DNA from: Brachybacterium paraconglomeratum
GTDB lineage: Bacteria > Actinomycetota > Actinomycetes > Actinomycetales > Dermabacteraceae
Reading direction: 5' to 3'
DNA length: 64,000 nucleotides
Assembly (NCBI RefSeq): GCF_003994255.1
Contig: NZ_ML133856.1
Location: 124,001-188,000, forward strand
Below the pieces are notes generated by a model. The model was given only the letters and a program-made list of their open reading frames with translations. It was not told where the DNA came from and did not search any database. A program made the position numbers and the translations under genes. Position 1 is the first letter of the stretch, and each line of letters begins with the position of its first letter. Positions 5,979 through 46,744 of the stretch are shown here, piece after piece.

Positions 5979-7317
5979 GGGCCAGGTCCCGTCCCAGCAG
6001 GACGGCCTGGATGTCCTGCCCGGCCTGCACGTAGTGCGTCAGGTCTCCGGGGTTGTAGACGCGGGGCTCGTCCTGCCTGTACTCGCCGGACCCGACCGAT
6101 GATTCGAGCACCCCGCCCGTGTCGCTCACCCAACCCGTCCCGAGGGGATGCGCGGGATCGCCCGGCACGACGTCACCTGCGAGGGTGATGACCGTGGCCC
6201 GGACCGCCCCGGCAGTGCCCGGGGTGACGGGCGCCCCGCCGATGATCGGTGCGCCGTCGCGCAGCCACGGATTCAGCACGTCCCCCGGCTTGTACACGCC
6301 GCTGGTCGTGCCGTCCCCGTTGTCGATCGCGCGGGGCGCGACAGTGCCCTGCACCCAGCGCACCACCCCCGCAGCGCGGGCAGTCTCCCATGCGGTGACC
6401 ATGTTGGCCCGCAGGTCCGCACCGACGCTGTTTCCGTCGTTCGTGCCGAGCGCGGAGAACACCGAGTCGGCGTACTTCAGCTGCTCGCCGAGCTGGAAGT
6501 CCCACCACCCCTCGGCGAGGTGGTAGGTGCCGAGTCCGTGCTTCCCGTTCAGAATGTGGGGGAGTGCCCGGGCGCGGAACGCCTGCGCGAGGTAGGACCG
6601 GGCCGGGTTCACGGAGTTGGAGTCCCCGATCAGCGCCCACGACGACGACTGCGCCGACGGGGCGAGGACCACCGACGGGCGCGCGCCTGTTCCGGTAGCG
6701 GAGAACGCCGACGCAGGGGCCTGCTCGACCGTGGCGGGGTCGCCGCTGGTCTTGCCGAGATCGTAGGTGCCGTCGAGGTCGCCCTGCACGCCCATCGTCC
6801 CCGTCGCGGCCTGGCCCCACGTCATGACCTCGATGGTGTCACCGAGATAGAACGGGCCGGGGATGGGGTCGGCGTAGACGTTCTGGGCATCGGAGGGCAG
6901 GAGCGCCTCTTCGCTGACTGCGCCGTGGAGGCTGACCTCCGTGGCCCCGTCGAACGTGCACTCGACCCAAGGTTCGCCCGGGCGTCGGACCCAGGCGCGG
7001 AGAGGGGTGTCTGCCCCGGCCCCGAACTTCGGGTTCGGGCGGGCGAACCAGCCGAGGGTGATCTCCGCGGCGTTGGCGTACAGCATGTGCCGGGTCGCGG
7101 ACGCGGCACCCGTCGTGCCGGGTGTCCACTGGTTCTGCAGGACGCCCGTGTTCGTGGCGATGTTCTGGACGGGCCCGTCATCGGGGGTGAACTCGGGCGG
7201 GGTGTACGAGCCCCCGCCGCCCAGGACGGGCACCCATTCCCCGCCCACGTGGCGGGCGACAGTCACACCCTCCCATGAGCCGCTGGTGTGGATCGCGAGG
7301 TTGTCCATGCCGGTCAC
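5965..7317 (-). CDS. tail-tip/fibre protein with SGNH hydrolase-like domain
   Basis: About 450 residues from a GTG start that overlaps the upstream stop (GTGA) with AAGG ten bases ahead; an ATG lies at 7308. The N-terminal part (VARHVGGEWVPVLGGGGSY) is typical of minor tail proteins. The middle has a beta-rich region, then an SGNH-like domain with WALIGDSNSVN and SALGTNDGNS. A clear block V Asp-x-x-His is less certain (LTHYVQAGQD near the end). Tail esterases of this kind deacetylate or cleave surface glycans during adsorption. The last structural gene before the lysis cassette. Confidence 0.72.
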   Translation of the reverse strand: MTGMDNLAIHTSGSWEGVTVARHVGGEWVPVLGGGGSYTPPEFTPDDGPVQNIATNTGVLQNQWTPGTTGAASATRHMLYANAAEITLGWFARPNPKFGAGADTPLRAWVRRPGEPWVECTFDGATEVSLHGAVSEEALLPSDAQNVYADPIPGPFYLGDTIEVMTWGQAATGTMGVQGDLDGTYDLGKTSGDPATVEQAPASAFSATGTGARPSVVLAPSAQSSSWALIGDSNSVNPARSYLAQAFRARALPHILNGKHGLGTYHLAEGWWDFQLGEQLKYADSVFSALGTNDGNSVGADLRANMVTAWETARAAGVVRWVQGTVAPRAIDNGDGTTSGVYKPGDVLNPWLRDGAPIIGGAPVTPGTAGAVRATVITLAGDVVPGDPAHPLGTGWVSDTGGVLESSVGSGEYRQDEPRVYNPGDLTHYVQAGQDIQAVLLGRDLALMGF

Positions 7318-8348
7318 GGGATGAACACCTTGAAGTCGCGCAGCAGGTTCGCCTGCGTGCGGAAGTCCGCGCGGATCTCCGTGATGTCCGCCGTGATCTG
7401 GCCGACGGTGGCCGACGCCTGGGTGGCGGATACACCGGTGGTGACGTTCTGGATCGACCACGTGCCCGCAGTGCGGTTGATGGTCATCCGGACCGTGTCC
7501 CCGTTCGTCATGGCGAGGCCGTTGAACGCCTTGGTCTGGCCACCTCCGGCGGGCCAAAGGAACGCCTCCTTCGACGCGAGGAAGCCGAGCGACCCGCCCG
7601 GTCCCCAGAGCTCCATCACCGAGAAGTTCTGGGACGTGCCGAGGTCGCATGTGAACTCGACCGCGATCGCCGAGAACGAAGCCGGAAGCACCAGTCGCGG
7701 CCACGCCATGGACTGACCCGAGGCGACCGTGATCTTCCCCCCGAGGATCGTCGTCGCCCCCGCAGCGTCCGGTGACCACGTGATCGCCTCACCGCCCGCG
7801 TACGCATCCGTCGTCGTGCCCGCGAGAGGCCCATCCGCCCGCTCGAACGAATCCGACGTGACCACATCCCCGGACTGGTAGGAGCGTGCAGGCCACGCCA
7901 TCTCGCCCGATGTCACCGCGCCAGGAGCGAACGTGTAGCCGGGCTTCGGCTCCGCCGACCAGGAAAGCGTCGTCTCGCCCGCAGAGTTGATGGGGTACGT
8001 CCCCGCACCCTTCACCTGCCCACCCACTCGGTACGTCGCCCCATCATCCGACGGGACTGTGTACGAGCGGCCGGACAGGCTCGCCGTCACCAGCTTCGGC
8101 ACCCACGCATTCGGATCCGGCGGAGAGGTCTGGATCCACCACACCTCGTAGATGCGATCCCCGATCACGATCGTCGGCTCCGGTTCCTCCACCGAAGCGA
8201 CCATCACGTACGGAACCTGTTCACCGTCCTCGTTGATGTAGAACCCGCCCGCGGCCCCGCCGCCGGCGATCTCCTGGACGTGCGCGACGGCGTCCGAGGG
8301 GAGCCGCCCATCGGGCAGCAGGGCCCGGAACGTGTTCGCCATGGTCAT
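7314..8348 (-). CDS. minor tail protein (probable receptor-binding or fibre protein)
   Basis: A 344-residue protein with an ATGA overlap with the preceding small gene. The N-terminus (LLPDGRLPSDAVAHVQEIAGG) is followed by a module with Fibronectin/CBM-like features (YPINSAGETTLSWSAEPKPGYTF) and a C-terminal beta-sandwich-like part (FERADGPLAG, then AVEFTCDLGTSQNF) that resembles lectin/laminin-G-type domains used for sugar binding. The position between the tail hub and the SGNH tail protein fits a host-recognition role. Confidence 0.65.
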   Translation of the reverse strand: MTMANTFRALLPDGRLPSDAVAHVQEIAGGGAAGGFYINEDGEQVPYVMVASVEEPEPTIVIGDRIYEVWWIQTSPPDPNAWVPKLVTASLSGRSYTVPSDDGATYRVGGQVKGAGTYPINSAGETTLSWSAEPKPGYTFAPGAVTSGEMAWPARSYQSGDVVTSDSFERADGPLAGTTTDAYAGGEAITWSPDAAGATTILGGKITVASGQSMAWPRLVLPASFSAIAVEFTCDLGTSQNFSVMELWGPGGSLGFLASKEAFLWPAGGGQTKAFNGLAMTNGDTVRMTINRTAGTWSIQNVTTGVSATQASATVGQITADITEIRADFRTQANLLRDFKVFIP

Positions 8349-10815: not shown

Positions 10816-11586
10816 TCACCCCACTTCGATCAGATTCAGCGATCCCGACCAGTACCCACCTGCCGGGTTGATGACGAGGGGGTCAGCGACCCCGGACTGG
10901 ATGATGACCTGCTCAGCGCCCCTGCCCGGCACCCACGGCCGCGCCTCCCGCGTCCACGACACCTGCGGACGAGATGCCCGGATGTGCCCGGACACCTCGA
11001 TGTCGACCGAGCGCGAGGACCACATCACCGACGGGGCCGAGTAGACGAGCCGCTGCGCGAGCGTGCCCGACGCAGAGACGGTCCGCGTCGAGTCGATAGC
11101 CCCCGCCGCAGACCGGAACGTCACCGTCAGCGTCGCCGCCCCGGTCGTGTCCACCGCGACGGTGACGGGCTTCCCTGGGATCACCGGCACCCGCTCCGCG
11201 AGCACCACCCGGCCCGGGCCCAGCACCGACCGCGGGGACCAGCCCGTGGCGGTGTCCATCCCCGTCCCCGCATCCAGCGCGGCGAGGATCGACTGCCCGG
11301 GCGTGAGCACGTTCGAGTCATGCGCAGCGCAGGACACCCACCGGAACGGGCCCGGCCCCCACGCACCCTGCACGAACTCATCCACCGCCGACATCTCGGC
11401 AGCGTCGAGCAGGCCGAGCTCCACGGCCCACTCCCTGCCCTGCACGCCGCCGCGCCGCGCAGTGTCGAACGCCCACCTGCGCGACGCGGCCGCCTGGACC
11501 ACGAACCGCTCGGGCCGGGCCTCCGACTGCGCGGACGCCGGCGCGACCGGCACCATCCTCGCCGTCGTGCCCAGGTATCCCGTCAC
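10816..11586 (-). CDS. distal tail protein (Dit-like)
   Basis: A 256-residue protein that overlaps the tape measure stop by 4 bases. Its N-terminal half (WAFDTARRGGVQGREWAVELGLLDAAE) and the later beta-rich half (PVTVAVDTTGAATLTVTF) fit distal tail proteins, which cap the tail tube and carry the hub. The assignment rests mainly on gene order (tape measure, Dit, hub). Confidence 0.65.
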   Translation of the reverse strand: MTGYLGTTARMVPVAPASAQSEARPERFVVQAAASRRWAFDTARRGGVQGREWAVELGLLDAAEMSAVDEFVQGAWGPGPFRWVSCAAHDSNVLTPGQSILAALDAGTGMDTATGWSPRSVLGPGRVVLAERVPVIPGKPVTVAVDTTGAATLTVTFRSAAGAIDSTRTVSASGTLAQRLVYSAPSVMWSSRSVDIEVSGHIRASRPQVSWTREARPWVPGRGAEQVIIQSGVADPLVINPAGGYWSGSLNLIEVG

Positions 11587-14500
11587 TTCGCACCGAGCCT
11601 TCCTGCGCGACGCATCACGCCGACGAACTCACGGTCACCGATCGCGACGATCGGCTCGTAGGCCGAGATCGCCCCGGCGACCGCACCAGCGATCACCCGG
11701 GAGTCCACCTCCGCGGCCACGGTCTGCGGACGCATCGACGACGCCGACACCATGGCCGGCGCCGCCGCGTACCCGCCCGACTCGACCCCACCGCCCTCCG
11801 CGAAGCGCAGCGCGCCCGCACGGATCGCGGCTCGCATCCGGAAGATGGAGTCGTGCCCGCCGGCGAGCGCGACCTCGGCCGCGGTGAGGACGTGCTCGCC
11901 GTTGGAGAGCAGCGCTGCGATGGAGTCGGAGGTGCTGGTGCCGGGGCCGTGCACGGGGCCACCGGTGGCGAAGCGCGAGCCGCCACCGCTTCCGCGGAAT
12001 CCGGGGTCGGAGTACCCGACGTAGATTGTCATGCTGCGGTTCCGGGCGGCGTTGTTGATGCGGGAGTTCGCGCCGCCGGAGTTGTCGTTGACGTCGATGT
12101 GGCTGCTGCGGTTGCGGGCAGTCGAGTTGAGAGACGACTCAGCTCCGCCGGTATGGGATCGGGCGGTGACGTCCGAGGTGCGGTCCCTGGACGTGGAGTT
12201 GAGGTCGCTCTCGGCGCGGCCGTCGTTCGCGTGCACGTCGATCGTGGAGTCCCGGTCGCGGGCTGCGCGGTTCGCCGCGGATTCGGCGGTGTCGGTGTCA
12301 GCGAGGACATCGATGGTGCCATCCGTCTCGTTCACGACGCCGATGAGCGTGTGGAGTGCCTCGTCGGCGGGGACCGTGCGTCCGTTGATGTCGACGGTTC
12401 CGTCGGACTCGTTGATCGTGCCCTGCAGGATGGAGAGGGCCTGCTCGGCGGTGACCGTGGAGCCGTTGATGGTGACGGTTCCACCGGCGAGTCCGATCGC
12501 CTCGTTGAGGGCGTTGACCTCCCACATCGCGAACTCGGTGTCCGCGTTGATGGTGGCGGTCTGGTCCTGGGTCTCGCTCTCGAGGACGTCTCCGAAGCCG
12601 TAGGTCTTCTGGATCGCCTCGTCGGTCTGGACGCCGACGGCGGTGTTCTTCTCCGGCGGGATGTCGGAGAGGAGCCCGGTGAACTGGGGGACCTTGCCCT
12701 CGGGGTCGACGGTGGGGTCGATGACGAGGGGCGGGTGGTAGCCGAGGTCCTCCCAGAGGGCGTTCCACCGCTCACGGGCCAGCTGGTCCTCGAGCTCGAT
12801 GAGCGTCGTGATGTTCTCCGGGGTGAGCCCCAGAGCGTCGACGTACGCCTCGGCTTGTTCGGTGGTCGCGCCCATCTCGATCGCGACGTCGTAGATCGCC
12901 TTGCGCTGCTCCTCGAGGTAGCCGCCGACGTCCTCGCCGTTGCGCTGCATCGCCTCGGCGTTGTCGAGCGCGGCCTGGGACAGCTCGTCGATGGCCTCGG
13001 CGTTGCTGCGTGCACCCTCGGTGCCGTTCTCCCAGGCCTTGCCGTTCTCGTCGATGGCCTCCTTCGCGGCCTTGAGCGCGTCCTCGTAGTCGCGGGCTGC
13101 CTGGCGGGCGTTGAGAAACCCGTCGGCGAGGGAGAACATCTTCTCCTGCAGGTCGCCGACGGCGTCCGCGGTGGTCTCCGTGGCCTCGCCTGCGCCCTCG
13201 ATCGCGTCGGAGTACCCCTCGACTGCGCCCGTGGTCTCGTTGACCACGGGGGAGAGCTCGCCCATCGCGATGCGATAGAGCACGGCGGAGTCGGTTCCGT
13301 CGAGACCCATCTGGGTCGCGATCCCGGCGAGCTCGTCGCGGAACGACGGCATGACCTTCATGACGTCGTCGAACGTCGCGCCGGACTTCTCGGCCTCCGC
13401 CATGAACGCGGCGAACGTCGACTGGGCCTTCGACAGGTCGGTCTGGGAGAGGAGCACGAACGCGTCGGACAGCTCGAGGAGCCGGTCCTTCGCGTCGTTG
13501 ACGCCCGAGGCGGCGAGAGGGCCGACCAGCTTCTGGAACCAGTTGATGTCCGCGACCTGGGAGACGGTGCTGCCGAGGTCGGCGAACATCTGCTTGTTCA
13601 GCGCGCCCGAGTCGTACATGTCGCCCAGGACGGCGTCGAACATGCGCCCGGTCCGCTCGCCCTCGAGGAGGCCCGCGGTGAGCTCGCCCATCCCGAGGTC
13701 GAACTCGGCATCGTCGATGCCGCGCATCGCGTCGGTGACCGAGTTCAGGATCGGCGGGACAGCGGCGAGCGCAGCGAAGGCCAGTCCGGCCTTGCCGACG
13801 GCGAGGGTGGCGCTGCCGAGCTTCCCGGCCATCGAGTCGCTGAGGATCCCCATCTCGCGGAACGCGGAGACGGTGTCCATGACGCGGGGGAACAGCAGCA
13901 GGAACGAGCCGGCGCCGAGCGCGGCGACGCCGGCGAGGCCGCCGAGCGCCGCGACGGTGCCCTGGACAGGGCCGGGGAGGTCTGCGAACCCGCCGGCGAG
14001 GTTGACGACGCCGTCGGCGAGGCCGGCGACGGCCGGCAGCACGACGCCGCCGATGCTGATGGCGGAGTCGACGAGGGCGTTCCGCGCCATCGCGATGCGG
14101 GACTCGGCGGTCTCGTACCGCTTGGACGCCTCCTCGATGAGGGCGGTGCCCTTGTCGAACTCGGAGTTGCCGGTCTGGACGGCGTCGGCAAGGAGGCTCA
14201 TCCCGTTCGCGCCCTGCTCGGACGCGGCCGAGAGGCGCAGCAGCGAGTCGGCCTCGCGGATGCCGGTGATGCCGAGCTCGGCGAGGACGCCGTTGGTGGT
14301 CATGCCCTGCGACTCGACACCGGACAGGCCGGTGATGAACGCGTCGAGCGCGGTGGTCGGGTCGTTGCGCCACGCGTCGGAGAACTCCTGCGCGGACATG
14401 CCGGACACCTGGGAGAACAGCTCGAGCGAGCTGCCGCCCTCGTCGACGGCCTTGCCGATGCGCTTCATCGTCTGCGACATCGCGGAGCCGCCGGCCTCCG

Positions 14501-15215
14501 CCTCGATGCCCACGGAGGACATGGCGGTGGCGATGCCGAGGATGTCGCCCTCGGACATGTTCGCCTGCGCGCCCGCGCCAGCGAGGCGCATCGACATCGC
14601 GAGGATCTCGGACTCCGTCGTCGCGAAGTTGTTGCCGAGGCCGACGATGGACGCGCCGAGCAGACCGATCTGGTTCTGCGAGGTGCCGGTGATGTTCACG
14701 AACCGGGCGAGGGAGGTTGCGGCCTCGTCAGCGGAGAGGTTCGTGGCCTCGCCCATGTTGATCATCGTGCGGGTGAAGCTCAGGATGTTCGGCGTCGCGA
14801 TGCCGAGCTGACCAGCCGCCTCGGCGACGGCCGCGATCTCCTGGTGCGAGGCCGGCAGCTCCCGCGCCATACTGCGCAGGCCCTGCTCGAGCGCGGCCAT
14901 CTGCGGGGCCGTGCCGTCGACGGTCTTCTGGACGCCGGCCCACGCCGACTCCCAGTCCATCGCGGCCTTCACCGCGAGCGCGAGCCCACCCACAGCCGCG
15001 GCACCGAAGCCGGTGAGGGTGGTGCCGACGGTGTCCCACGCCGCGCGGTTCTTCTGCGCGGACTGGACCATGCGGCCCATCGCGGTGTCGGCCTGCTTCG
15101 CCGCGGTCTCGGTGCCCTTCGCGGTCTGATCGACAGCCCGAGTCGCCTCGGCCATCTCCCGCTTGAACCCATCAACCTCGGCACGGAGGCGGACTACGAT
15201 TGAACGGTCAGCCAC
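11583..15215 (-). CDS. tail tape measure protein
   Basis: A 1210-residue protein, GTG start with GAGGGGG seven bases ahead. The order is an N-terminal coiled coil (RAEVDGFKREMAEATRAVDQ), the TP901-type core (AVAEAAGQLGIATPNILSFTR onward), hydrophobic segments at about 390-480, a long helical middle, then two repeat sets. One set is GTVTINGSTVTAEQALSILQ / GTVDINGRTVPADEALHTLI. The other is four units of about 26 residues built on NDGRAESDLNSTSRDRT / TGGAESSLNSTARNRS. The C-terminus has GGPVHGPGTSTSDSIAALLS, typical of tape measures. The length predicts a tail of roughly 180 nm if 0.15 nm per residue holds. No lysozyme or peptidase domain seen. Confidence 0.93.
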   Translation of the reverse strand: MADRSIVVRLRAEVDGFKREMAEATRAVDQTAKGTETAAKQADTAMGRMVQSAQKNRAAWDTVGTTLTGFGAAAVGGLALAVKAAMDWESAWAGVQKTVDGTAPQMAALEQGLRSMARELPASHQEIAAVAEAAGQLGIATPNILSFTRTMINMGEATNLSADEAATSLARFVNITGTSQNQIGLLGASIVGLGNNFATTESEILAMSMRLAGAGAQANMSEGDILGIATAMSSVGIEAEAGGSAMSQTMKRIGKAVDEGGSSLELFSQVSGMSAQEFSDAWRNDPTTALDAFITGLSGVESQGMTTNGVLAELGITGIREADSLLRLSAASEQGANGMSLLADAVQTGNSEFDKGTALIEEASKRYETAESRIAMARNALVDSAISIGGVVLPAVAGLADGVVNLAGGFADLPGPVQGTVAALGGLAGVAALGAGSFLLLFPRVMDTVSAFREMGILSDSMAGKLGSATLAVGKAGLAFAALAAVPPILNSVTDAMRGIDDAEFDLGMGELTAGLLEGERTGRMFDAVLGDMYDSGALNKQMFADLGSTVSQVADINWFQKLVGPLAASGVNDAKDRLLELSDAFVLLSQTDLSKAQSTFAAFMAEAEKSGATFDDVMKVMPSFRDELAGIATQMGLDGTDSAVLYRIAMGELSPVVNETTGAVEGYSDAIEGAGEATETTADAVGDLQEKMFSLADGFLNARQAARDYEDALKAAKEAIDENGKAWENGTEGARSNAEAIDELSQAALDNAEAMQRNGEDVGGYLEEQRKAIYDVAIEMGATTEQAEAYVDALGLTPENITTLIELEDQLARERWNALWEDLGYHPPLVIDPTVDPEGKVPQFTGLLSDIPPEKNTAVGVQTDEAIQKTYGFGDVLESETQDQTATINADTEFAMWEVNALNEAIGLAGGTVTINGSTVTAEQALSILQGTINESDGTVDINGRTVPADEALHTLIGVVNETDGTIDVLADTDTAESAANRAARDRDSTIDVHANDGRAESDLNSTSRDRTSDVTARSHTGGAESSLNSTARNRSSHIDVNDNSGGANSRINNAARNRSMTIYVGYSDPGFRGSGGGSRFATGGPVHGPGTSTSDSIAALLSNGEHVLTAAEVALAGGHDSIFRMRAAIRAGALRFAEGGGVESGGYAAAPAMVSASSMRPQTVAAEVDSRVIAGAVAGAISAYEPIVAIGDREFVGVMRRAGRLGAK

Positions 15216-19521: not shown

Positions 19522-20553
19522 TCAGATCACGTCGGCGACCAGCAGCTTGCGCGGGTCGTAGATGACGGGCATGACCACGCCGCCGACCTTGGTCCACGTG
19601 TGGACGGGGTCGAAGGTCTTCATGACCACGCCGACGAGGCCGGGGAGCTGCTGGTAGGTCAGCTCCGGGTTGGACATGCCGGCGAGCTCGAGCGCCTCGG
19701 CGGTGATGCCCCAGACGGTCTCGCCGAGCGAGGCCGGGTCCGAGGGGCCGAACACGACCTTCTCGGACGGGAGCACTCGGGTGTCGGCGCCGCCGATCTC
19801 CACGCGGGTCTCGTAGACCGTGATCGCGGGGAGCTCGAAGCTCTCGAGCAGGGTGCTCAGCTCGGCGGGAGCGATCGCGGTCGGGAGCGCGGTGCCGGGA
19901 CGGGCCGCGGCCTTCACCTCGGCCGACTGCAGCATGTGCGAACGCGCGGTCCGCGACATGATGATCGAGCCGGGCATCTCGCCGGTCGCGTCGCTGTAGC
20001 GCTGCGCCCAGGTGACGAGGTCGGAGAGCGGCGTCGCGTTCGCGTGGTCGCTCCACAGCACGGTCGGGGCGACCAGGTTGTCGGTCGGGACGCCGAAGTC
20101 GGCCTCGAGGGTCAGCCCGTTCTCCCCGGCGAGGGTGAACTTGCCGTCCGCGAGGACGTCGCCGCGCGCGAGCTCGACGCGGGCCAGGGTGGCGCGCGCG
20201 TTCAGCTCGACGTCGTCGTACACCTGGTCGGCGATCGCCGCGGTGTTCCCGCCGCCGTTGCGGATCTTCTCGAGCTGCAGGCGCTCGAGCTCACCGATCA
20301 CGGTCTTCTGACCCACCGGGGGCAGCATGACCTTGCGGCGCGAGAACCCGTCGCGCTGCCCGATGGGGGTCTCCGCGTCGTACGAGCGGAAGCTCGCGGC
20401 GCGGTTCGTGCGGGTCACCGAGTCGATGGTCGCCTCGATGTCCTGCACGGCCTTGTCGGGCAGGAACTGGTTCAGGATGTAGTTCGCCGGGGTGGGCACC
20501 TCACGCGCGAACGCGGTCAGCGCGCCACCGGGGACGATGTCGTTCATGAGCAT
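19522..20553 (-). CDS. major capsid protein (gpE-like family)
   Basis: A 343-residue protein. Its pattern follows the lambda gpE-type capsid family: ANYILNQFLPDKAVQDIEAT, then RSYDAETPIGQRDGFSRRKV, MLPPVGQKTVIGELERLQLE, SIIMSRTARSHMLQSAEVKA, and a C-terminal MKTFDPVHTWTKVGGVVMPV. Preceded by a decoration protein gene and a scaffold gene, the gpD/gpE order of this capsid class. Confidence 0.92.
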   Translation of the reverse strand: MLMNDIVPGGALTAFAREVPTPANYILNQFLPDKAVQDIEATIDSVTRTNRAASFRSYDAETPIGQRDGFSRRKVMLPPVGQKTVIGELERLQLEKIRNGGGNTAAIADQVYDDVELNARATLARVELARGDVLADGKFTLAGENGLTLEADFGVPTDNLVAPTVLWSDHANATPLSDLVTWAQRYSDATGEMPGSIIMSRTARSHMLQSAEVKAAARPGTALPTAIAPAELSTLLESFELPAITVYETRVEIGGADTRVLPSEKVVFGPSDPASLGETVWGITAEALELAGMSNPELTYQQLPGLVGVVMKTFDPVHTWTKVGGVVMPVIYDPRKLLVADVI

Positions 20554-24597: not shown

Positions 24598-26325
24598 TCA
24601 CCGCCGGGAGCCGACGACGACCTTCCTGTGCGTGTTCTGCGTGGCCGTGCGGATCCAGCCGTCCAGGCCCGTCACGGCGGCCTGGATGCCGTCGATGCGG
24701 GTGAGGGCCTGCTGGCGGTTCGGCTTCACGGGCCGGATGTTGTCGGTCTCGTCGCGCTTCACTTCGACGACCGACGCCATCCAGCGGGTCACGGGGTCGT
24801 CGGGGAAGCGGACCGTCTGGGAGCCGAGCAGCCGCTCGAACTCCTTCGCCGGCGCGGACAGGCCGAGGAAGCCCTGGCCGACGGGGTTCACCTCGACGCC
24901 GCGGAGCTCCTGATCGATCTCCTGCACTATCTGGCCCGCGAACATCCGGTCGTAGCTGATTCGGCGCATGTCGAAGTGTCTGGCGTCGCCGATGATCTGC
25001 GACTTGATCGTCGAGTAGTCGATGACGTCGCCGTCGGTCGCGACGACATGGCCGTCGTCGATCCACTGCTGAAGCGGGACGAGCAGCTGCTTCTCGAGGT
25101 CTTCGACCCGCTCGCCCGGCACCCAGTACCGGATCATCAGGTCCAGCTCGAAGCCGGGCCGGTTCGACTCGACCCACACGGCCCAGGCCGAGAAGTCGGA
25201 GACGGCCGACAGGTCCAGTCCGCCCCAGGCGCGCCGGCCGCGCAGCTTGGCGCGGTCGATCGGGGCGCGGAGCTCGTCGAACTTGTCGATGTCCAGCCAG
25301 CGGCTCTGCGCCCGCTTGCGCAAGTTCAGCGAGAGCCGCAGGTACGTCGGGAGGTACGTCGGCGAGGACTTCGCTTTCGTCGCCTCGCCCTCGAGGTAGC
25401 GCTTCGTCGGCGACTTCCCGTAGCCGGGGTTCGCCTTCCGTTGCGTCTCCTCCGAGAACGGGTCGTCGCTCGGCTCCGCCGCCCAGATCACGCCGTAGTG
25501 CGAGGGGTCCGTGAGGATCCCGAGCGCGAGGTTCCGGGTCAGGCGGTGCTTCTCGTCGTAGACCGTCCCCTCCTCGGCCTCGTCGGCCGTGGTGATGAAG
25601 ACGATCAGCGGCTGATCCCGCGCGCCGACGCCGGTCTCGATCGCCTCGACCAGCGCGCGCCGCAGCCGCAGCGTGTGGACCTCGTCGATGATCGCGCCCG
25701 AGACGTTCAGGCCGTGCGCTGTCTCCGCGACGCGGGACAGGACCCGGAGGATGCTGCCGGTGCGCGGCACGCGCACGACGTCCTTCAGCGGCTCCACGCG
25801 GCGCCGCGCCGCCTTCGAGGTCGACAGCATGCGCTTCGCGTCCTCGAACACCCGGCCGGCCTGCGTGGTCGAGCCCGCGGCGTTGTACACCTCGGCGCCC
25901 GGCTCGGAGTCGGCGAGCAGCAGCACCCCGGAGATCCCCGAGGAGAGCGTGGACTTCCCGTTCTTGCGCGGCACCTCGATCCACGCCGAGCGGATCACGC
26001 GCACGACGCGGTCGATCTCGGAGTCGTGGAAGACCCAGCCGAAGATCGGCGCGATCACCCAGACGATCTGCCACGGGTCCAGGCCCTCGCCCAGACGCAT
26101 CCGCACGCCCGCCCAGCGGCCCTTGGTGTGCTTGAACGCGCCGAGGGCCTGCAGGGCCCGGCGAGCGCGCGGCACGTCGTACCAGGCGCCCGGATGGTCC
26201 TTCGCCTGGCAGGCGAGGACGAGGGGCCGGCGGTCGAGCGCGTCGATGATCTGCTCGTGCGAGAGGCCGAGCTCGATCAGCGCGTCGTACGGCACCGGGA
26301 GAGCGTCGTAGTCGGCGGTGGCCAC
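24598..26325 (-). CDS. terminase large subunit
   Basis: A 575-residue protein. ATPase domain with Walker A PRKNGKST (119-126) and Walker B AIIDEVH (211-217), coupling motif around VFITTADEAEEG, then the nuclease domain with GGLDLSAVSDFSAW and DGDVIDYSTIK. It belongs to the HK97/Terminase_1 group, consistent with cos packaging. It cuts and pumps DNA into the prohead with the small subunit encoded just upstream. Confidence 0.95.
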   Translation of the reverse strand: MATADYDALPVPYDALIELGLSHEQIIDALDRRPLVLACQAKDHPGAWYDVPRARRALQALGAFKHTKGRWAGVRMRLGEGLDPWQIVWVIAPIFGWVFHDSEIDRVVRVIRSAWIEVPRKNGKSTLSSGISGVLLLADSEPGAEVYNAAGSTTQAGRVFEDAKRMLSTSKAARRRVEPLKDVVRVPRTGSILRVLSRVAETAHGLNVSGAIIDEVHTLRLRRALVEAIETGVGARDQPLIVFITTADEAEEGTVYDEKHRLTRNLALGILTDPSHYGVIWAAEPSDDPFSEETQRKANPGYGKSPTKRYLEGEATKAKSSPTYLPTYLRLSLNLRKRAQSRWLDIDKFDELRAPIDRAKLRGRRAWGGLDLSAVSDFSAWAVWVESNRPGFELDLMIRYWVPGERVEDLEKQLLVPLQQWIDDGHVVATDGDVIDYSTIKSQIIGDARHFDMRRISYDRMFAGQIVQEIDQELRGVEVNPVGQGFLGLSAPAKEFERLLGSQTVRFPDDPVTRWMASVVEVKRDETDNIRPVKPNRQQALTRIDGIQAAVTGLDGWIRTATQNTHRKVVVGSRR

Positions 26326-26384: not shown

Positions 26385-26990
26385 TCAGTCGAAGATGTCG
26401 TCCTCGTCGTCGCCGTCGTCGCCCATCCCGGCAGGGAGGCCGGTGCGGGCGCTGGGGGAGAGGCCCAGCTCGCGGATGTACGTCTTCAGCTGCACGCGGT
26501 ACTGGCCGGCGACGGTCGTCAGCGGGTTCTTCGAGGGGCCGCGCTGGCCCATCACGATCAGGCCGACGCGGGCGAGCTCGTGCTCGCACCATTCGAGGCG
26601 GGCGACGCACACGCACATGTCCACGACGATGGACCAGTCCGGATCCGAGAGGCCGATGGAGTTGCGGAGGATCGGGACGACCCGCCTCCACTCCTCCGCG
26701 GCGCGGCGCCGCACGAAGCGGGTGCCGTTGATCGCCTGCCGGCGGAGCTCGTACGCCTCGAGCTGCTTGTCGAAGCGGTACTGCCGCTGCGTGAAGTGCT
26801 CGATCGACTCGCCCTGCTCGCGCTCCGGCTCCTTCGGACGCCGCGGCGCCTTCGCCTCCGGGAACTCCCGCGACCAGTTCGGCTCGGGGAACTCCGCCGG
26901 CGGGAGCTTCACGCCCTCCTCGACGGGCCGGTGACTCGGGTTGCCCTCGCGGAGCACGGCGAGCGCCGGGCGCGCAGCGGGGCCGGCCAT
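26385..26990 (-). CDS. terminase small subunit (P27-like)
   Basis: A 201-residue protein. The ATG at 26990 follows GGAGGTGCCCG, a strong ribosome binding site, so the longer frame to 27116 is rejected. The central part (FVRRRAAEEWRRVVPILRNS, IVVDMCVCVARLEWCEHE) and the GPSKNPLTTVAGQYRVQLKTY block are typical of the P27 family, which recognises the packaging site. A patterned repeat array lies just upstream. Confidence 0.87.
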   Translation of the reverse strand: MAGPAARPALAVLREGNPSHRPVEEGVKLPPAEFPEPNWSREFPEAKAPRRPKEPEREQGESIEHFTQRQYRFDKQLEAYELRRQAINGTRFVRRRAAEEWRRVVPILRNSIGLSDPDWSIVVDMCVCVARLEWCEHELARVGLIVMGQRGPSKNPLTTVAGQYRVQLKTYIRELGLSPSARTGLPAGMGDDGDDEDDIFD

Positions 26991-27000
26991 CGGGCACCTC

Positions 27001-27430
27001 CTCGGTGGTCGGAAGATCCCGAAGGGGACCCCCTGATCAGAACTGTCCAACCTGCGGGGCCACGAGTTCTCCTCCCCGGCGGTCCCGGAGGGGGCGGGGG
27101 GAGGGGGTCCCCCCACCCATCACCGCAGGTCAGAGCGTCGCGGCGAGCGGCGAGCGCGCGGCGCGACGCGCGGCGCGGCCGACAAACCCGCAGGTCAGCG
27201 GCTCGTCGCTTCGACGGTCCTTCGTGATGCGAGCGACGAAAGCGCAGGTCAGAACGTCGAGCGCGACGAGCGAGCGCGCCGAGCGCTCAGCAAACCCGCA
27301 GGTCACAGCGTCGAAGGCTGAGCGCACGAGCCGTCGATCAGCGCTGCATCGCGCGAGGTCAGCGCGTCGAGCTCGGGACCGAAGCTGGTCCTTCGCGGGT
27401 CCGACGCGCGACGGTCAGCGAGCGTTGCCC
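27001..27430. repeat. Non-coding packaging-site candidate with six ~55-bp spaced repeats
   Basis: This gap holds no gene. Repeats of the type CGCAGGTCAnnGCGTCG start at 27124, 27189, 27243, 27297, 27354 and 27409 (the last two weaker), so the spacing is 65, 54, 54, 57 and 55 bp. Two copies are preceded by AAACCC. An inverted AACCTGCGGG lies at 27049-27058, and a G-rich stretch able to fold back lies at about 27086-27118. The place between an HNH endonuclease and the terminase small subunit fits a cos site with terminase-binding repeats. The cut position cannot be read from the sequence. Confidence 0.7.
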
Positions 27431-27759
27431 CGCCATCGCACAGCACGACCGGCAGCCCGGAGGTTGCACCGGCGGTGTGCCGGACCGAGGTACCCGGTGC
27501 GGTCGTCCGTGTGGTCCGGGGACCACTCCGCATCGGGGGCGATGTACTCCCCGCACCGCACACACCGGGCGGTGCCGGTAGCCACGATGGGCGCCCACCG
27601 TGCACGCTCCACCTCGTGCTCCCGGCCGTAGCCGCGCTGCTGCCGTGTGCCTCGCACGCGCTCATGCCGAGAGGCGTGCTCGGTGCAGTACCGCTCGCCC
27701 ACCCCGATGGTGTCGGGGCATCCCGGCACGGGGCACGGGCGGCGGGGTGCGCGGGGCAT
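27415..27759 (-). CDS. HNH endonuclease next to terminase
   Basis: A 114-residue protein; the ATG at 27759 follows GGAGG. Zinc pairs CPVPGC and CVRCGE, then WSPDHTDDR and HRRCNLRAAG give the beta-beta-alpha-metal HNH fold. HNH proteins next to terminase are known to help terminase cut cos DNA in HK97-like phages, and this gene borders the repeat array. Its last bases overlap the weakest repeat. Confidence 0.88.
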   Translation of the reverse strand: MPRAPRRPCPVPGCPDTIGVGERYCTEHASRHERVRGTRQQRGYGREHEVERARWAPIVATGTARCVRCGEYIAPDAEWSPDHTDDRTGYLGPAHRRCNLRAAGRAVRWRGNAR

Positions 27760-37091: not shown

Positions 37092-37390
37092 GCTGCCTCA
37101 CCGCCCTCGGCGAGCTCGTAGGTCGCCTCGAAGATGTCGGGCTTGCATGGGTAGAACTCGCCCTGCACGCCGCGGATCACGTAGTCGCCCAGCGCCGCGA
37201 TCATGTCGCCTTCGAGCGTGCGGATCAGCAGATGGGACTCACCGTCGCCGCAGTTCAGATGCAGGTAGGCAGTCCCGCCTTCACGGCGAATCCAACGGAG
37301 GACCGTCTCGATGCTGTCGACGGGGTTGATGACCCGCATCGCCACGATCTCGACGGGCTTCTTCCGGAACCTGGTGGGTCGGATGTTCAT
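37088..37390 (-). CDS. conserved phage protein (GDYVIRGVQGEFYPCK family)
   Basis: 100 residues: RFRKKPVEIVAMRVINPVDS, then GDYVIRGVQGEFYPCKPDIF and ATYELA. This is a very widespread small phage protein family of unknown function, easily known by its G-[DE]-[YW]-[IV]-[IV]-R-G...GEFYPCKPDIFE block. ATGA overlaps on both sides. Confidence 0.85.
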   Translation of the reverse strand: MNIRPTRFRKKPVEIVAMRVINPVDSIETVLRWIRREGGTAYLHLNCGDGESHLLIRTLEGDMIAALGDYVIRGVQGEFYPCKPDIFEATYELAEGGEAA

Positions 37391-38859
37391 GCCGCCTCAC
37401 CGCCCTCGGCGAGCGCAGCGTCGCCCTCGGCGCTGTCGGCCGGGTCGGCGTCGTGGGGGATGCCGGTGGCGAGGAGGATGGCCTGCTGCTCGACGGGGGT
37501 CCACTCGTAGCCGCTGAGCTCGAGGAGCTGGCGGAGCTTCGAGGTGGCGGTCCAGTAGGAGGAGCCGGCACGGCCGAGGGTCATGGCGCGGTGGTCGGAC
37601 TTGAGCGTCCACCAGTGCGTCTCGAGCCAGGACAGGACGGGGAGCGGCCAGGTGGTGAGCGCCTTGGTCACCTTGGGCTTGCCCTCGGCGCCGGTGAGCG
37701 CCTCGAGGAGCGCGATGGCGTCCTTGTCGTCGCCGTAGCCGTTCCAGCCCTGCTTGGCGAGCCTGGCGGCGGTGGCGTCGGTGGCTTCCTTCGTGAGGTC
37801 GAGGCCGGGGAGGGTGGCGGCGAGGTGACGTTCACGGTGGACCTTCGCGGTGGCGAAGTCCTCGGCGTCGAGGTCGTCCCACGGGTCGGCGGGCTCGGGC
37901 TCCGGGGCGGGGGCTTCGGCGGGGCTGTCGTTGGGGTGGAGGGTCTTCTGCTGGTCGCAGCCGACGACGAGCGTGCCGACGGGGACGTGGCCCAGGACCG
38001 GGACGCGGATGCCGGATTGGGTGATGATCACGCCGCAGTGCCCGGGGCAGTCGGCGTGTTCGTCAGCGAGGAGCGAGACCCACTCGCCAGGGTCGGTCTG
38101 GCCGTCCTTGGCCGCCTCCTCGATTGCGGGGGTGGCCCAGACGCCTGCCTCCACGAGATCGGTGAGGCCGACGGCCGCCTCGGCGATGCGGAGGCCGCGC
38201 TTCTTCGCCTCCTTACGGGAAGTGGCGGCGCGGTCGCGGTCCTCGCGGCGGCGTCGCGCTGCGGAGACCTCCCAGTCGAACTGGTAGGTGCCGGCCGTGC
38301 GCTCGAGCTCTTCCACGGCCTCGGGGTCGTCGCTGTACTCCGCGATCACGAGCGCGTCGTCGACGGTGATCTGGCCGCGGTGGACCTTGTCCCCGGTGTC
38401 GTCGGCGAGCTTCGAGAGTTTCGCCCGCTCCTTCACGCGCTGCTTGCCGAGCGCGGTCTGCTTCGCGACCTCGGCCTGGGTCATGCCCAGGTCGAGCATG
38501 TCCTGGACGAGGCGGGCCTCCTCCACGGCGGTGAGCTGGTCGCGGAGGATGTTCTCCGTCGCGATGAACGCGAGCTGCGCCTTCGGGTCTGTGAGGTCGC
38601 CGCGGATCTGCACCGGGACTTCGGTGAGGCCGAGGGCGTGCGCGGCGGTGAGGCGGCGGTGGCCGCCGAGGACGACGAAGTCGGTCCAGCTGTCGTCCCG
38701 CGGTGCGGCGACGAGGGGGACTTCGATGCCGTGCTCCCGGATCGACTCGGTCAGGTCCTCCACCTGCGCGGCGTCGATGCGGGGGTTCTGCTCATGCGGG
38801 TGGAGCACGTCGACGTGCACCATCTGCACCTGCTCCATGACTCCCTGGATCTGCTCCAT
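37387..38859 (-). CDS. ParB-like protein
   Basis: 490 residues from ATG 38859 (TGATG overlap). N-terminal ParB/Srx fold: LHPHEQNPRIDAAQVEDLTE, VVLGGHRRLTAAHALGLTEV, then the HTH part FIATENILRDQLTAVEEARL and DLGMTQAEVAKQTALGKQRV. A long helical, Pro-rich C-terminal half has a C-x3-C pair and no clear domain. No ParA or parS is seen, and the prophage is integrated, so a role in regulation or as a CTPase/nuclease during replication is more likely than partition. Confidence 0.85.
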   Translation of the reverse strand: MEQIQGVMEQVQMVHVDVLHPHEQNPRIDAAQVEDLTESIREHGIEVPLVAAPRDDSWTDFVVLGGHRRLTAAHALGLTEVPVQIRGDLTDPKAQLAFIATENILRDQLTAVEEARLVQDMLDLGMTQAEVAKQTALGKQRVKERAKLSKLADDTGDKVHRGQITVDDALVIAEYSDDPEAVEELERTAGTYQFDWEVSAARRRREDRDRAATSRKEAKKRGLRIAEAAVGLTDLVEAGVWATPAIEEAAKDGQTDPGEWVSLLADEHADCPGHCGVIITQSGIRVPVLGHVPVGTLVVGCDQQKTLHPNDSPAEAPAPEPEPADPWDDLDAEDFATAKVHRERHLAATLPGLDLTKEATDATAARLAKQGWNGYGDDKDAIALLEALTGAEGKPKVTKALTTWPLPVLSWLETHWWTLKSDHRAMTLGRAGSSYWTATSKLRQLLELSGYEWTPVEQQAILLATGIPHDADPADSAEGDAALAEGGEAA

Positions 38860-39308
38860 CACTCCTGCTCCTCCTGGTCTTCGCCGGCCTCCATGGCCCG
38901 GCGCCTGATCTGTCCGGAGATCTCGTCTCCGAGCCCGCGCAGCCGATGGCCGAGCGCGAGCAAGTCCCTGTCCTCCATCACTGGGAGCGCCGCAGCGACT
39001 TCCCGTACGAGCCCCGCCGTGACCTCGTCTCGCCACCGCCCGCACTTCGCGTTGTGGTGGTTCCCGCGCCACGACTGGTCCATGTCGCCCCGCTCACCGG
39101 GCGCGCGGTACTTGCACAGCAGCCCGCCGTGCGCGTCCCGCCACACCTCGTAGGTCCCGACCCCGCCGTCGAGCTGGTAGCGCACCGGCTCGAGCGGCGT
39201 CCAGACCTTCCCGTGCAGCCCCCACGCCCACCACACATCCGCACCGCAGTCCTCACAGACCGGTGCCGGACGCGCGGGGCGCGGAGTTCCGGGGCGACGA
39301 CTCCTCAC
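38859..39308 (-). CDS. zinc-ribbon-like phage protein
   Basis: 149 residues. The GTG at 39308 overlaps the upstream stop (GTGA). VCEDCGADVWWAWGLHGKVW gives a C-x2-C knuckle, followed by GTYEVWRDAHGGLLCKYRAP and HHNAKCGRWRDEV that supply two further Cys; the C-terminus is helical and acidic. A four-Cys zinc ribbon is likely. Role unknown. Confidence 0.65.
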   Translation of the reverse strand: MRSRRPGTPRPARPAPVCEDCGADVWWAWGLHGKVWTPLEPVRYQLDGGVGTYEVWRDAHGGLLCKYRAPGERGDMDQSWRGNHHNAKCGRWRDEVTAGLVREVAAALPVMEDRDLLALGHRLRGLGDEISGQIRRRAMEAGEDQEEQE

Positions 39309-45443: not shown

Positions 45444-46592
45444 TCAGGCGGCCTGCGAGCCTCTCGGGGGCTTCATGAGGTGCTCGAGGTCGCGGGAGTG
45501 CGTGACCGTCGGGCGGGTCTTCGTCGGGACGAGGTGGCCGTAGACGTCGGTGGTGGTCTTGATCGAGCGGTGGCCGAGGGCGCGGGAGACCTCGAAGAGG
45601 TCGGCGCCGGCGGCGAGCATGTGCGAGGCGGCGTAGTGGCGGAGGTCGTGCACGCGCGGGCGCGGGTCGAGCTTCGCCGCGGTGCAGGCGCTGGTCCAGT
45701 GGTATTGGTGGAAGGTGTGGTGCTGGACCTGGCGGCCGTGCCGGTTGCGGAACACCAGCTGCTCGGGCTTCCCGCGGGCGCCGAGCGCGGCGATGATCCC
45801 GGGCGTGGTCTCGATCGTGCGGTACGCCGTGCGGGTCTTCGGCGCGCCGAGCTCGCGGCCACCGGAGTCGGCGTGCTTCCACGCCTGCCGAACGCGGATT
45901 CGGGCGCCGGCGGCGTCGACGTCGCGCCACGTGAGCGCGGTCGCCTCGCCCCACCGCATGCCCGTCGCGGCGAGCAGCAGCACCAGCGGCCGGTACAGCG
46001 GGGAGATCGCGGCGACGATGCGGCCCAGCTCCTCGGTCGTCGGGATCTGCAGCTCGTGGTGCTCGGCCGAGGGAAGGCGCACCTTCTCGCACGGGTTCGT
46101 CGTCGCCCAGCCGCGATCCACCGCGTGCTGCAGCAGCGAGGAGAGGAGCCCGTGCTCGTTCCGGATCGTCTTCGGCGCGATCGGCCGCTTCGTCTTCGCC
46201 GAGACCTTGGTGCGCCTCGCCTGGACCCACTGCTCCACGTCGACCCGATCGATCATCGAGACCGGGAACGCGCCGAGCCGTTCCTCGAGCCCCGACCGGG
46301 CGAGGACCCGCCGGTACTCCGCCGCGGTGCCGGCCGTGATGTCCGGGGCCGCGGCGATGTAGTCCTCGAGCACCTCGGACAGCAACGGCGTCGTCGGCCC
46401 GCCCTCGGCGAGCGCGAGCCGCTTCGCGCGGGCTGCGGCGCCGCCGATCGTGTCGACGAGCTTCGCGAAGGCGCCGGCCTCACGTGCGGTGTCGAAGGTC
46501 TCGGTCGTCGGCGGGCCGCCGCGGGCCAGCCTGAACTGGACCCTGTACGCGACCGTGCCGTCCGCCCTCGGACGTGCTGAAACCGATGCCAT
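45444..46592 (-). CDS. int: tyrosine integrase
   Basis: 382 residues from ATG 46592 with AGGAG six bases ahead. N-terminal arm-binding strands (SVSARPRADGTVAYRVQFRL), core-binding SAM-like part (SEVLEDYIAAAPDITAGTAA) and catalytic domain with R213 (GMRWGEAT), K252, H315 and R318 (HDLRHYAASHML), H341 (LGHRSIKTTT) and Y351 (DVYGHL). All catalytic residues are present. It recombines attP with the tRNA-Glu 3' end; the gene lies 79 bp from attR and reads away from it. Confidence 0.95.
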   Translation of the reverse strand: MASVSARPRADGTVAYRVQFRLARGGPPTTETFDTAREAGAFAKLVDTIGGAAARAKRLALAEGGPTTPLLSEVLEDYIAAAPDITAGTAAEYRRVLARSGLEERLGAFPVSMIDRVDVEQWVQARRTKVSAKTKRPIAPKTIRNEHGLLSSLLQHAVDRGWATTNPCEKVRLPSAEHHELQIPTTEELGRIVAAISPLYRPLVLLLAATGMRWGEATALTWRDVDAAGARIRVRQAWKHADSGGRELGAPKTRTAYRTIETTPGIIAALGARGKPEQLVFRNRHGRQVQHHTFHQYHWTSACTAAKLDPRPRVHDLRHYAASHMLAAGADLFEVSRALGHRSIKTTTDVYGHLVPTKTRPTVTHSRDLEHLMKPPRGSQAA

Positions 46593-46613
46593 GCCCACTC
46601 CTGAGACTCGGAT

Positions 46614-46635: not shown

Positions 46636-46670
46636 GCCGTGACAATCGAGCGTCAGTGCAGGTCAGAAGC

Positions 46671-46744
<74 letters not shown>

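Follow-up and report, generated by a model that had tools for sequence, protein, structure and literature searches.

Based on comparison with other phage genomes we found, as a new result, that the repeat array between the HNH endonuclease gene and the terminase small subunit (TerS) gene of a prophage-like element is the expanded version of an element that many actinophages have in common at their right ends. Judged from sequence comparison, the array may best be explained as the multi-copy form of a widespread right-end cos element that would be bound by a shared accessory (IHF-like) protein, an explanation that we hold tentatively and with slightly less than even confidence. The motif is apparently undescribed, and it looks like a widely shared packaging signal that perhaps serves in integration as well.

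The repeat array and the probable cos region of the prophage

The array was found in the window, the whole stretch of 64,000 nucleotides of Brachybacterium paraconglomeratum DNA that was analysed, within an element that resembles a prophage and has a capsid gene at 19522-20553, a tape measure gene at 11583-15215 and an integrase beside a tRNA. Its early region holds a large ParB-like gene (37387-39072; phrog_6218, 6.2e-60). The genes next to the array and the integration region are given below.

27415 to 27759, minus strand: HNH endonuclease gene, upstream of the array (phrog_1808, 1.1e-9; phrog_144, 8.1e-9)
26385 to 26990, minus strand: terminase small subunit gene, start codon read by eye (Pfam PF05119, 1.3e-16; phrog_83)
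24598 to 26325, minus strand: terminase large subunit gene (PF03354, PF20441; phrog_9, 4.1e-120)
45444 to 46598: integrase gene, adjoining tRNA-Glu (phrog_1, 5.2e-69)
46671 to 46744: tRNA-Glu
46656 to 46665, minus strand: possible degenerate motif copy TTCTGACCTGCAC between tRNA-Glu and the integrase gene (two mismatches to the 10-mer, three to the 13-mer)

The HNH gene product gave no match to Pfam, and the motif copy beside the tRNA is weak on its own.

On the coding (minus) strand the repeat unit reads TGACCTGCGGNWWYGC, with a 10-bp core TGACCTGCGG. Four clear copies and one degenerate copy lie in the interval from the HNH stop (27415) to the terS start (26990), their cores starting at 27123, 27188, 27242, 27296 and, weakly, 27352, with spacings of 65, 54, 54 and 56 bp. 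The core TGACCTGCGG is exact at 27123-27132, 27188-27197 and 27296-27305 (minus strand).

27117 to 27132, minus strand: R1 TGACCTGCGGTGATGG, the cut-proximal copy, core end 50 bp from the putative cut
27182 to 27197, minus strand: R2 TGACCTGCGGGTTTGT, exact core
27236 to 27251, minus strand: R3 TGACCTGCGCTTTCGT, core at 27242-27251 with one mismatch
27290 to 27305, minus strand: R4 TGACCTGCGGGTTTGC, exact core
27346 to 27361, minus strand: R5 TGACCTCGCGCGATGC, degenerate, core at 27352-27361 with three mismatches, TGACC kept

The original prediction had counted six repeats at a regular spacing of about 55 bp. Repeats are present at these positions, but four are clear, one is degenerate and the sixth is doubtful: the ten-mer at 27408-27417 falls in the HNH stop region, contains the stop codon itself and has three mismatches, and the sequence aligned to it in the related contig L015 (TGACCCGCAC) is likewise three mismatches from the core. 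It is at best a remnant and was not counted. The spacing of about 55 bp fits the intervals of 54, 54 and 56 bp but not that of 65 bp, so that the array is not uniformly spaced.

When copies with at most one mismatch were counted on one strand, four were observed, whereas 5000 Markov shuffles gave 0.06 on average and never more than 2. As the region is GC-rich and repetitive, any 10-mer family with at least four members was reached in 26 of 300 shuffles of the stretch, and the window alone is therefore suggestive, not decisive. At the level of sequence, it is the comparison with L015 that settles that the repeats are real. Related phages had been proposed as a place to look for a like spacing, and in L015 all four spacings between the five copies proved identical to those of the window. 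The cores are identical at 45 of 50 positions and the spacers at 148 of 210 (Fisher p = 0.004), and the counterpart of R5 in L015 is a 1-mismatch copy at equal spacing.

The non-coding block between the array and terS is homologous to the genome ends of the Arthrobacter phages Judy and ChuckDuck, which have the same terminase module as the window. The linear records of these two phages have their first base 50 bp ahead of terS and their last 71 bp past the HNH gene, and their ends ...GACCGCCGGAGA / GGG align with ...GACCGCCGGGGA / GGAG in the window. The sequence CCGCAGG is found at +16 from the cut in the window as well as in Judy and ChuckDuck. From this alignment and the shared CCGCAGG we therefore infer a cut at 27073/27072, with the right end at 27073 and the left end at 27072. 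The corresponding features are as follows.

27071 to 27084, minus strand: putative cosN GACCGCCGGGGAGG, placed by alignment to the Judy and ChuckDuck linear ends
27104 to 27114, no strand assigned: inverted repeat GGGGGTCCCCC, between R1 and cosN; similar G-rich inverted repeats are found in relatives
27043 to 27057, minus strand: terS-side site CCGCAGGTTGGACAG, at +16 from the cut and inverted relative to the array

A cos region between the HNH gene and terS had been predicted, and it is borne out, as that of an HK97/Terminase_4-type packaging module, by the homology to the Judy and ChuckDuck ends, as a conserved block is found where these related genomes end. Seen from the cut, the array lies towards the HNH gene, the right-end side, at about 50-290 bp from the right end. 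The cosN block is 93/95 identical to that of L015 and was found also in L288, L312 and L335. A block composed of a G-rich inverted repeat, cosN and CCGCAGGTT is shared by L288, L303, L307, L312, L315, L335 and the L283 lineage; in these relatives CCGCAGGTT stands in the same place, and is usually followed by a T-tract and GATCAGG. The +16 site reads CCGCAGGTTAGAGC...TTTTTGATCAGG in several relatives, with CCGCAGGTTAGAGC in L288 and L315.

The suggestion that proteins bound to the array would sit on one face of the helix did not hold. At 10.5 bp per turn the copies are rotated by 0, 69, 120, 171 and 291 degrees, and 54 bp corresponds to 5.14 turns, which is not a whole number; a helix of 10.8 bp per turn would phase four of the five copies. 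Over 87 deduplicated motif pairs, which include the window array and its relative, no phasing was detected (Rayleigh p about 0.94 at 10.5), and with seven helical periods tried on the same pairs no Rayleigh p fell below 0.38. Helical phasing as a general property was rejected on the basis of these 87 pairs.

The motif at right genome ends and in other contexts

The extended motif unit (13-16 bp) is CTCTGACCTGCGGNWWYGC. In viral contigs the two-copy pattern was found in 104 stretches, many of them beside HNH or terminase genes or at phage genome ends. Two motif 30-mers matched 578 and 767 phage records, mostly of Mycobacterium phages, followed by those of Gordonia, Streptomyces and Rhodococcus, such searches finding only records that resemble these two 30-mers. 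Evenly spaced samples of 60 rows from each search, including GenBank/RefSeq duplicates and close relatives, had 42/60 and 46/60 rows no more than 150 bp from the right end of the record (measured from the end of the matched piece), compared to 0.36 expected in all. The distance was 47-55 bp in 58 of these 88 right-end rows, and the 50 bp of the window fits this range. Among the other 32 of the 120 sampled rows, three were within 200 bp of the left end, and the Streptomyces rows in the two samples were all internal and away from the right end (8/8). Such right-end copies are CTCTGACCTGCGGNWWYGC-like and typically some 45-110 bp from the end, and R1, with its core 50 bp from the putative right end, agrees with them. 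The Rhodococcus phage Bradshaw has an imperfect copy only. At 22 contig right ends, which were chosen for a motif near the end and give its distance, not its frequency, the motif was forward in 10 and reverse in 12; several of these ends are from close relatives and one is from a metagenome contig (L272), and L242 was left out because its end lies inside its contig.

Two phages of about 76 kb (L194 and L200) have the same terminal sequence with the right-end motif pair in opposite orientations. The last 210 bp of L103 (G066) is another multi-copy case, with four motif-like copies at spacings of 50, 47 and 39; two of these have two mismatches, and one of the two is on the reverse strand.

The closest relatives of the window were the seven IMG/VR contigs L015-L021, which form one phage lineage with TerS 94% identical and the layout as in the window. 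In the more distant L335 a copy is located 51 bp from the cut, with a degenerate copy 54 bp further out. In L322, where the cosN block is present, an exact core is found at +42, where it is on the side of terS instead of the right-end side. A 1-mismatch version of the core was seen on the terS side in L300. Judy and ChuckDuck have the TerS family of the window, the HNH gene and the +16 site, and the right-end motif copy is absent from both.

Among 80 TerL-family loci that were found without using the motif, 11 carried an exact core in the 1800 bp preceding terL, and seven of these represent the one lineage. Without L015-L021 the number is 4 of 73 loci, of which just 38 have the full 1800 bp upstream present, and the element is therefore occasional, not universal, in this terminase family. 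Similarly, the 80 loci contained 32 exact cores in 106 kb upstream of terL compared to 3 in 490 kb elsewhere, with 28 of the 32 coming from the lineage, and without it 4 cores in 94 kb upstream compared to 3 in 456 kb elsewhere. The correction for the lineage thus weakens the link within the terminase family and leaves the right-end tally of the named phages unaffected.

The one-copy pattern gave at least 120 matches, and 116 loci were analysed. Using HMMs that were grown from a few seeds and would miss other terminases, we placed 42 loci near terminase or portal genes, 16 at contig ends (a tally that leaves out L178 and L227, which are locus ends and not contig ends) and 16 near recombinases or TraB, whereas 42/116 had none of the detectable contexts. 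TerL was found within 1200 bp of the motif in 35/116 loci, compared to 11% of random positions, and a recombinase gene within 500 bp in 12/116 loci, compared to 1.2% of random positions. In Adephagia a copy lies about 15 bp from the tmRNA-like attP core (recognised by eye), which is described in the available part of PMC3203893, and about 125 bp before int; the copy in Taquito is 141 bp before int. The motif is thus found at both cos and attP across phages, the window itself having just the weak copy near the tRNA. Some copies adjoin serine recombinases. A linkage to tRNA genes as such was too weak to be retained, with 6/278 copies within 200 bp of a tRNA compared to 1.2% for random positions. 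A possible hairpin or RNA element of the form GCG-GNWW-YGC, spotted by eye, was set aside because both motif orientations occur.

In host genomes the motif gave 21 matches in 20 of 396 Actinomycetota genomes, and a reversed-pattern control gave 0. Copies without phage context were found after Streptomyces glutamine synthetase genes, in MITE-like repeats of Acidimicrobiia and after parB. Ten Streptomyces/Kitasatospora-type loci (L126:4771, L133:4259, L128, L144, L145, L147, L151, L153, L159 and L163) have two direct copies about 55 bp apart, with an inverted motif copy between the two in several loci of this type; in L126 and L133, the two that were tested, the copies start 12 bp after the glutamine synthetase frame. 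The MITE-like repeats, recognised by eye in L131, L134, L135, L146, L148, L154, L155 and L161 (Acidimicrobiia and unclassified MAGs), have AGAGGCCGCGCGGATAGG-type inverted ends that flank a pair of motif copies spaced by 45 bp. In the Streptomyces contig L149 one open frame (6233-7999), close to a motif pair, matches both Cas_Csd1 and a DDE transposase, and it is perhaps a fusion or an insertion.

Candidate binding proteins

As the motif is found at both cos and attP, one factor acting at both is the simplest explanation, with lambda IHF, which acts at both cos and attP, as precedent. The candidate binder would be a sequence-specific accessory DNA-binding protein common to these phages, most simply a host-encoded one. 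Such a protein could help to assemble the nucleoprotein complex that acts at cos when terminase cuts or packaging terminates, and it might build a similar complex at attP, as IHF does for lambda. With its four or five copies the array of the window would gather several protomers, which may fold or coat about 240 bp beside the cut. Taken further, actinobacteria could have a sequence-specific functional counterpart of IHF with the box CTCTGACCTGCGGNWWYGC, and otherwise different actinophages would have this box in common, both beside attP and at a nearly constant distance inside the right cos end, some of them having multiplied it into an array; this wider proposal is a possibility that we put forward with clear reservation.

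Several observations count against an accessory factor. The motif is rare in host genomes, which is odd for a host factor, and for mIHF no common motif was obtained by ChIP-seq according to the accessible part of PMC6155035. Since serine integrases need no host factor (PMC3642061, as far as its available text goes), the copies next to serine recombinases also speak against it. Further points are that the element is optional in the terminase family, that the copy of L322 is on the terS side, that the Streptomyces rows are internal, and that there are non-phage copies and the 42/116 loci free of a detectable context.

The main rival is that the repeats are small-terminase sites, with TerS bound to the +16 site and to the inverted right-end copies in a cosB/cosQ-type role, so that the concatemer would be held for cutting or the motor would be stalled as the right end arrives. 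We regard this as possible but rather doubtful, and it stays live since the +16 site and the inverted repeat unit, CCGCAGGTCAGAGC, are alike. Compared to the inverted 13-mer core, the site has one mismatch in L288 and L315 (by eye), two in Judy and three in the window, while among control 60-mers two or fewer mismatches occurred in 0/3600 and three in 2.4%. The location of the array between cosN and the HNH gene also agrees with TerS binding. Since HK97 TerS binds at +15 to +29 next to an A-tract (available part of PMC11331095), the predicted TerS site would likelier be the +16 site than the array.

However, the small terminases of motif-bearing phages belong to phrog_83 (window), phrog_1459 (Rando14 and L043) and phrog_1496 (L104), and the proteins encoded at the place of terS in L022 and Gustav were assigned to phrog_226 (a minor tail protein by its label) and phrog_37254 (function label none). 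The motif is thus found at right ends or upstream of terL with other TerS families than that of the window, and it occurs also at attP and integrases, whereas Judy and ChuckDuck have the TerS family of the window and the +16 site without a right-end copy. A site with two or fewer mismatches was found in the first 60 bp of 0/15 other left ends, and the TerS of the window had no PDB match by sequence. The original prediction had proposed a terminase-wrapping array. This is not favoured, because the motif spans at least three TerS families and an HNH annotation is sometimes absent; the array lies on the HNH side, and Judy and ChuckDuck are without the motif. Compared to R sites of the cosB type, the array is not on the terS side of cosN, and its sites do not track the TerS family. 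TerS as the universal binder was rejected, the motif being found with several TerS families.

It is unlikely that the motif serves transcription from a site upstream of int and the late operon, as an operator, insulator or promoter accessory. Late transcripts of Adephagia begin close to the right end and cross cos, according to the available part of PMC11373665, and several copies are found upstream of integrase starts, most sampled matches being outside annotated genes. Such a role is opposed by the two orientations, which are about equally common, and by Crossroads, LittleE and KatherineG, in which the genes nearest to the right end run leftward, pointing away from it, and the copy is still within about 115 bp of the end.

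Recognition by the adjacent HNH endonuclease, which would nick cos together with terminase, is very improbable. The HNH gene is adjacent to the motif in the window, in Che8, in Redi and in many viral contigs, but ChuckDuck and Judy carry the HNH gene without the motif, and motif copies are found also at attP. Additionally, no HNH gene is annotated within 1.9-2.0 kb of the right end in Crossroads, LittleE and Fishburne, which have exact cores, or in KatherineG, which has a 1-mismatch core; hypothetical genes in that stretch could still be HNH. HNH recognition and late-operon control were both rejected as the main reading. That the repeats arose by chance within a GC-rich intergenic stretch, as the shuffled 10-mer families and the poor units 5 and 6 might suggest, is hardly credible, being contradicted by the footprint in L015 and by the recurrence of the motif at a similar distance from genome ends.

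Relation to known packaging and integration signals

To our knowledge, cos recognition has been little studied outside lambda and HK97. In the part of the open literature that was searched, no description of the motif was found, and the available text of the papers on Cluster K, Cluster J, Tweety, Microbacterium, Rhodococcus and Adephagia leaves it unmentioned. In the phiJoe paper it occurs just as part of a primer whose name refers to int-attP. Its presence about 50 bp inside the right ends of Mycobacterium, Gordonia and, imperfectly, Rhodococcus phages with differing small terminases points to a common and unrecognised step in packaging, perhaps also in integration. The motif provides a sequence handle for finding its protein and a means of flagging probable cos ends in contigs and prophages, and is a possible element for cosmid-type vectors in actinobacteria.

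The lambda IHF sites (I1 in cosB and H in attP) are alike in being asymmetric sites of about 13 bp that are used at both cos and attP, and IHF, like the binder proposed here, is a host factor that is not tied to one terminase or integrase. In contrast to the lambda sites, the element described here has another sequence, is located on the right-end side of cos and is present in up to four or five copies, and its binder is putative, mIHF being without a known motif. The R sites of lambda cosB and the pac boxes of SPP1 are also short direct repeats beside a packaging cut next to terS. In lambda the R sites and terminase are on one side of the cut; the array lies on the other, and its motif does not track the TerS family and shows no general phasing. 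Lambda cosQ, on the side at which the end of packaging is sensed, shares that side with the array, but it is one short site with a sequence unrelated to that of the array.

The HK97 TerS site, as given in the accessible part of PMC11331095, resembles the conserved +16 site of the window and its relatives, several of which have a T-tract after it; the array is a separate element, at least 50 bp away on the other side of the cut. The SAS/ESAS of cluster K and the stoperators of actinophages (available parts of PMC3203893 and PMC13313380) are likewise short repeats in intergenic gaps, but they differ in sequence and in position, being found at translation starts or at many genome sites and not fixed to the right end.
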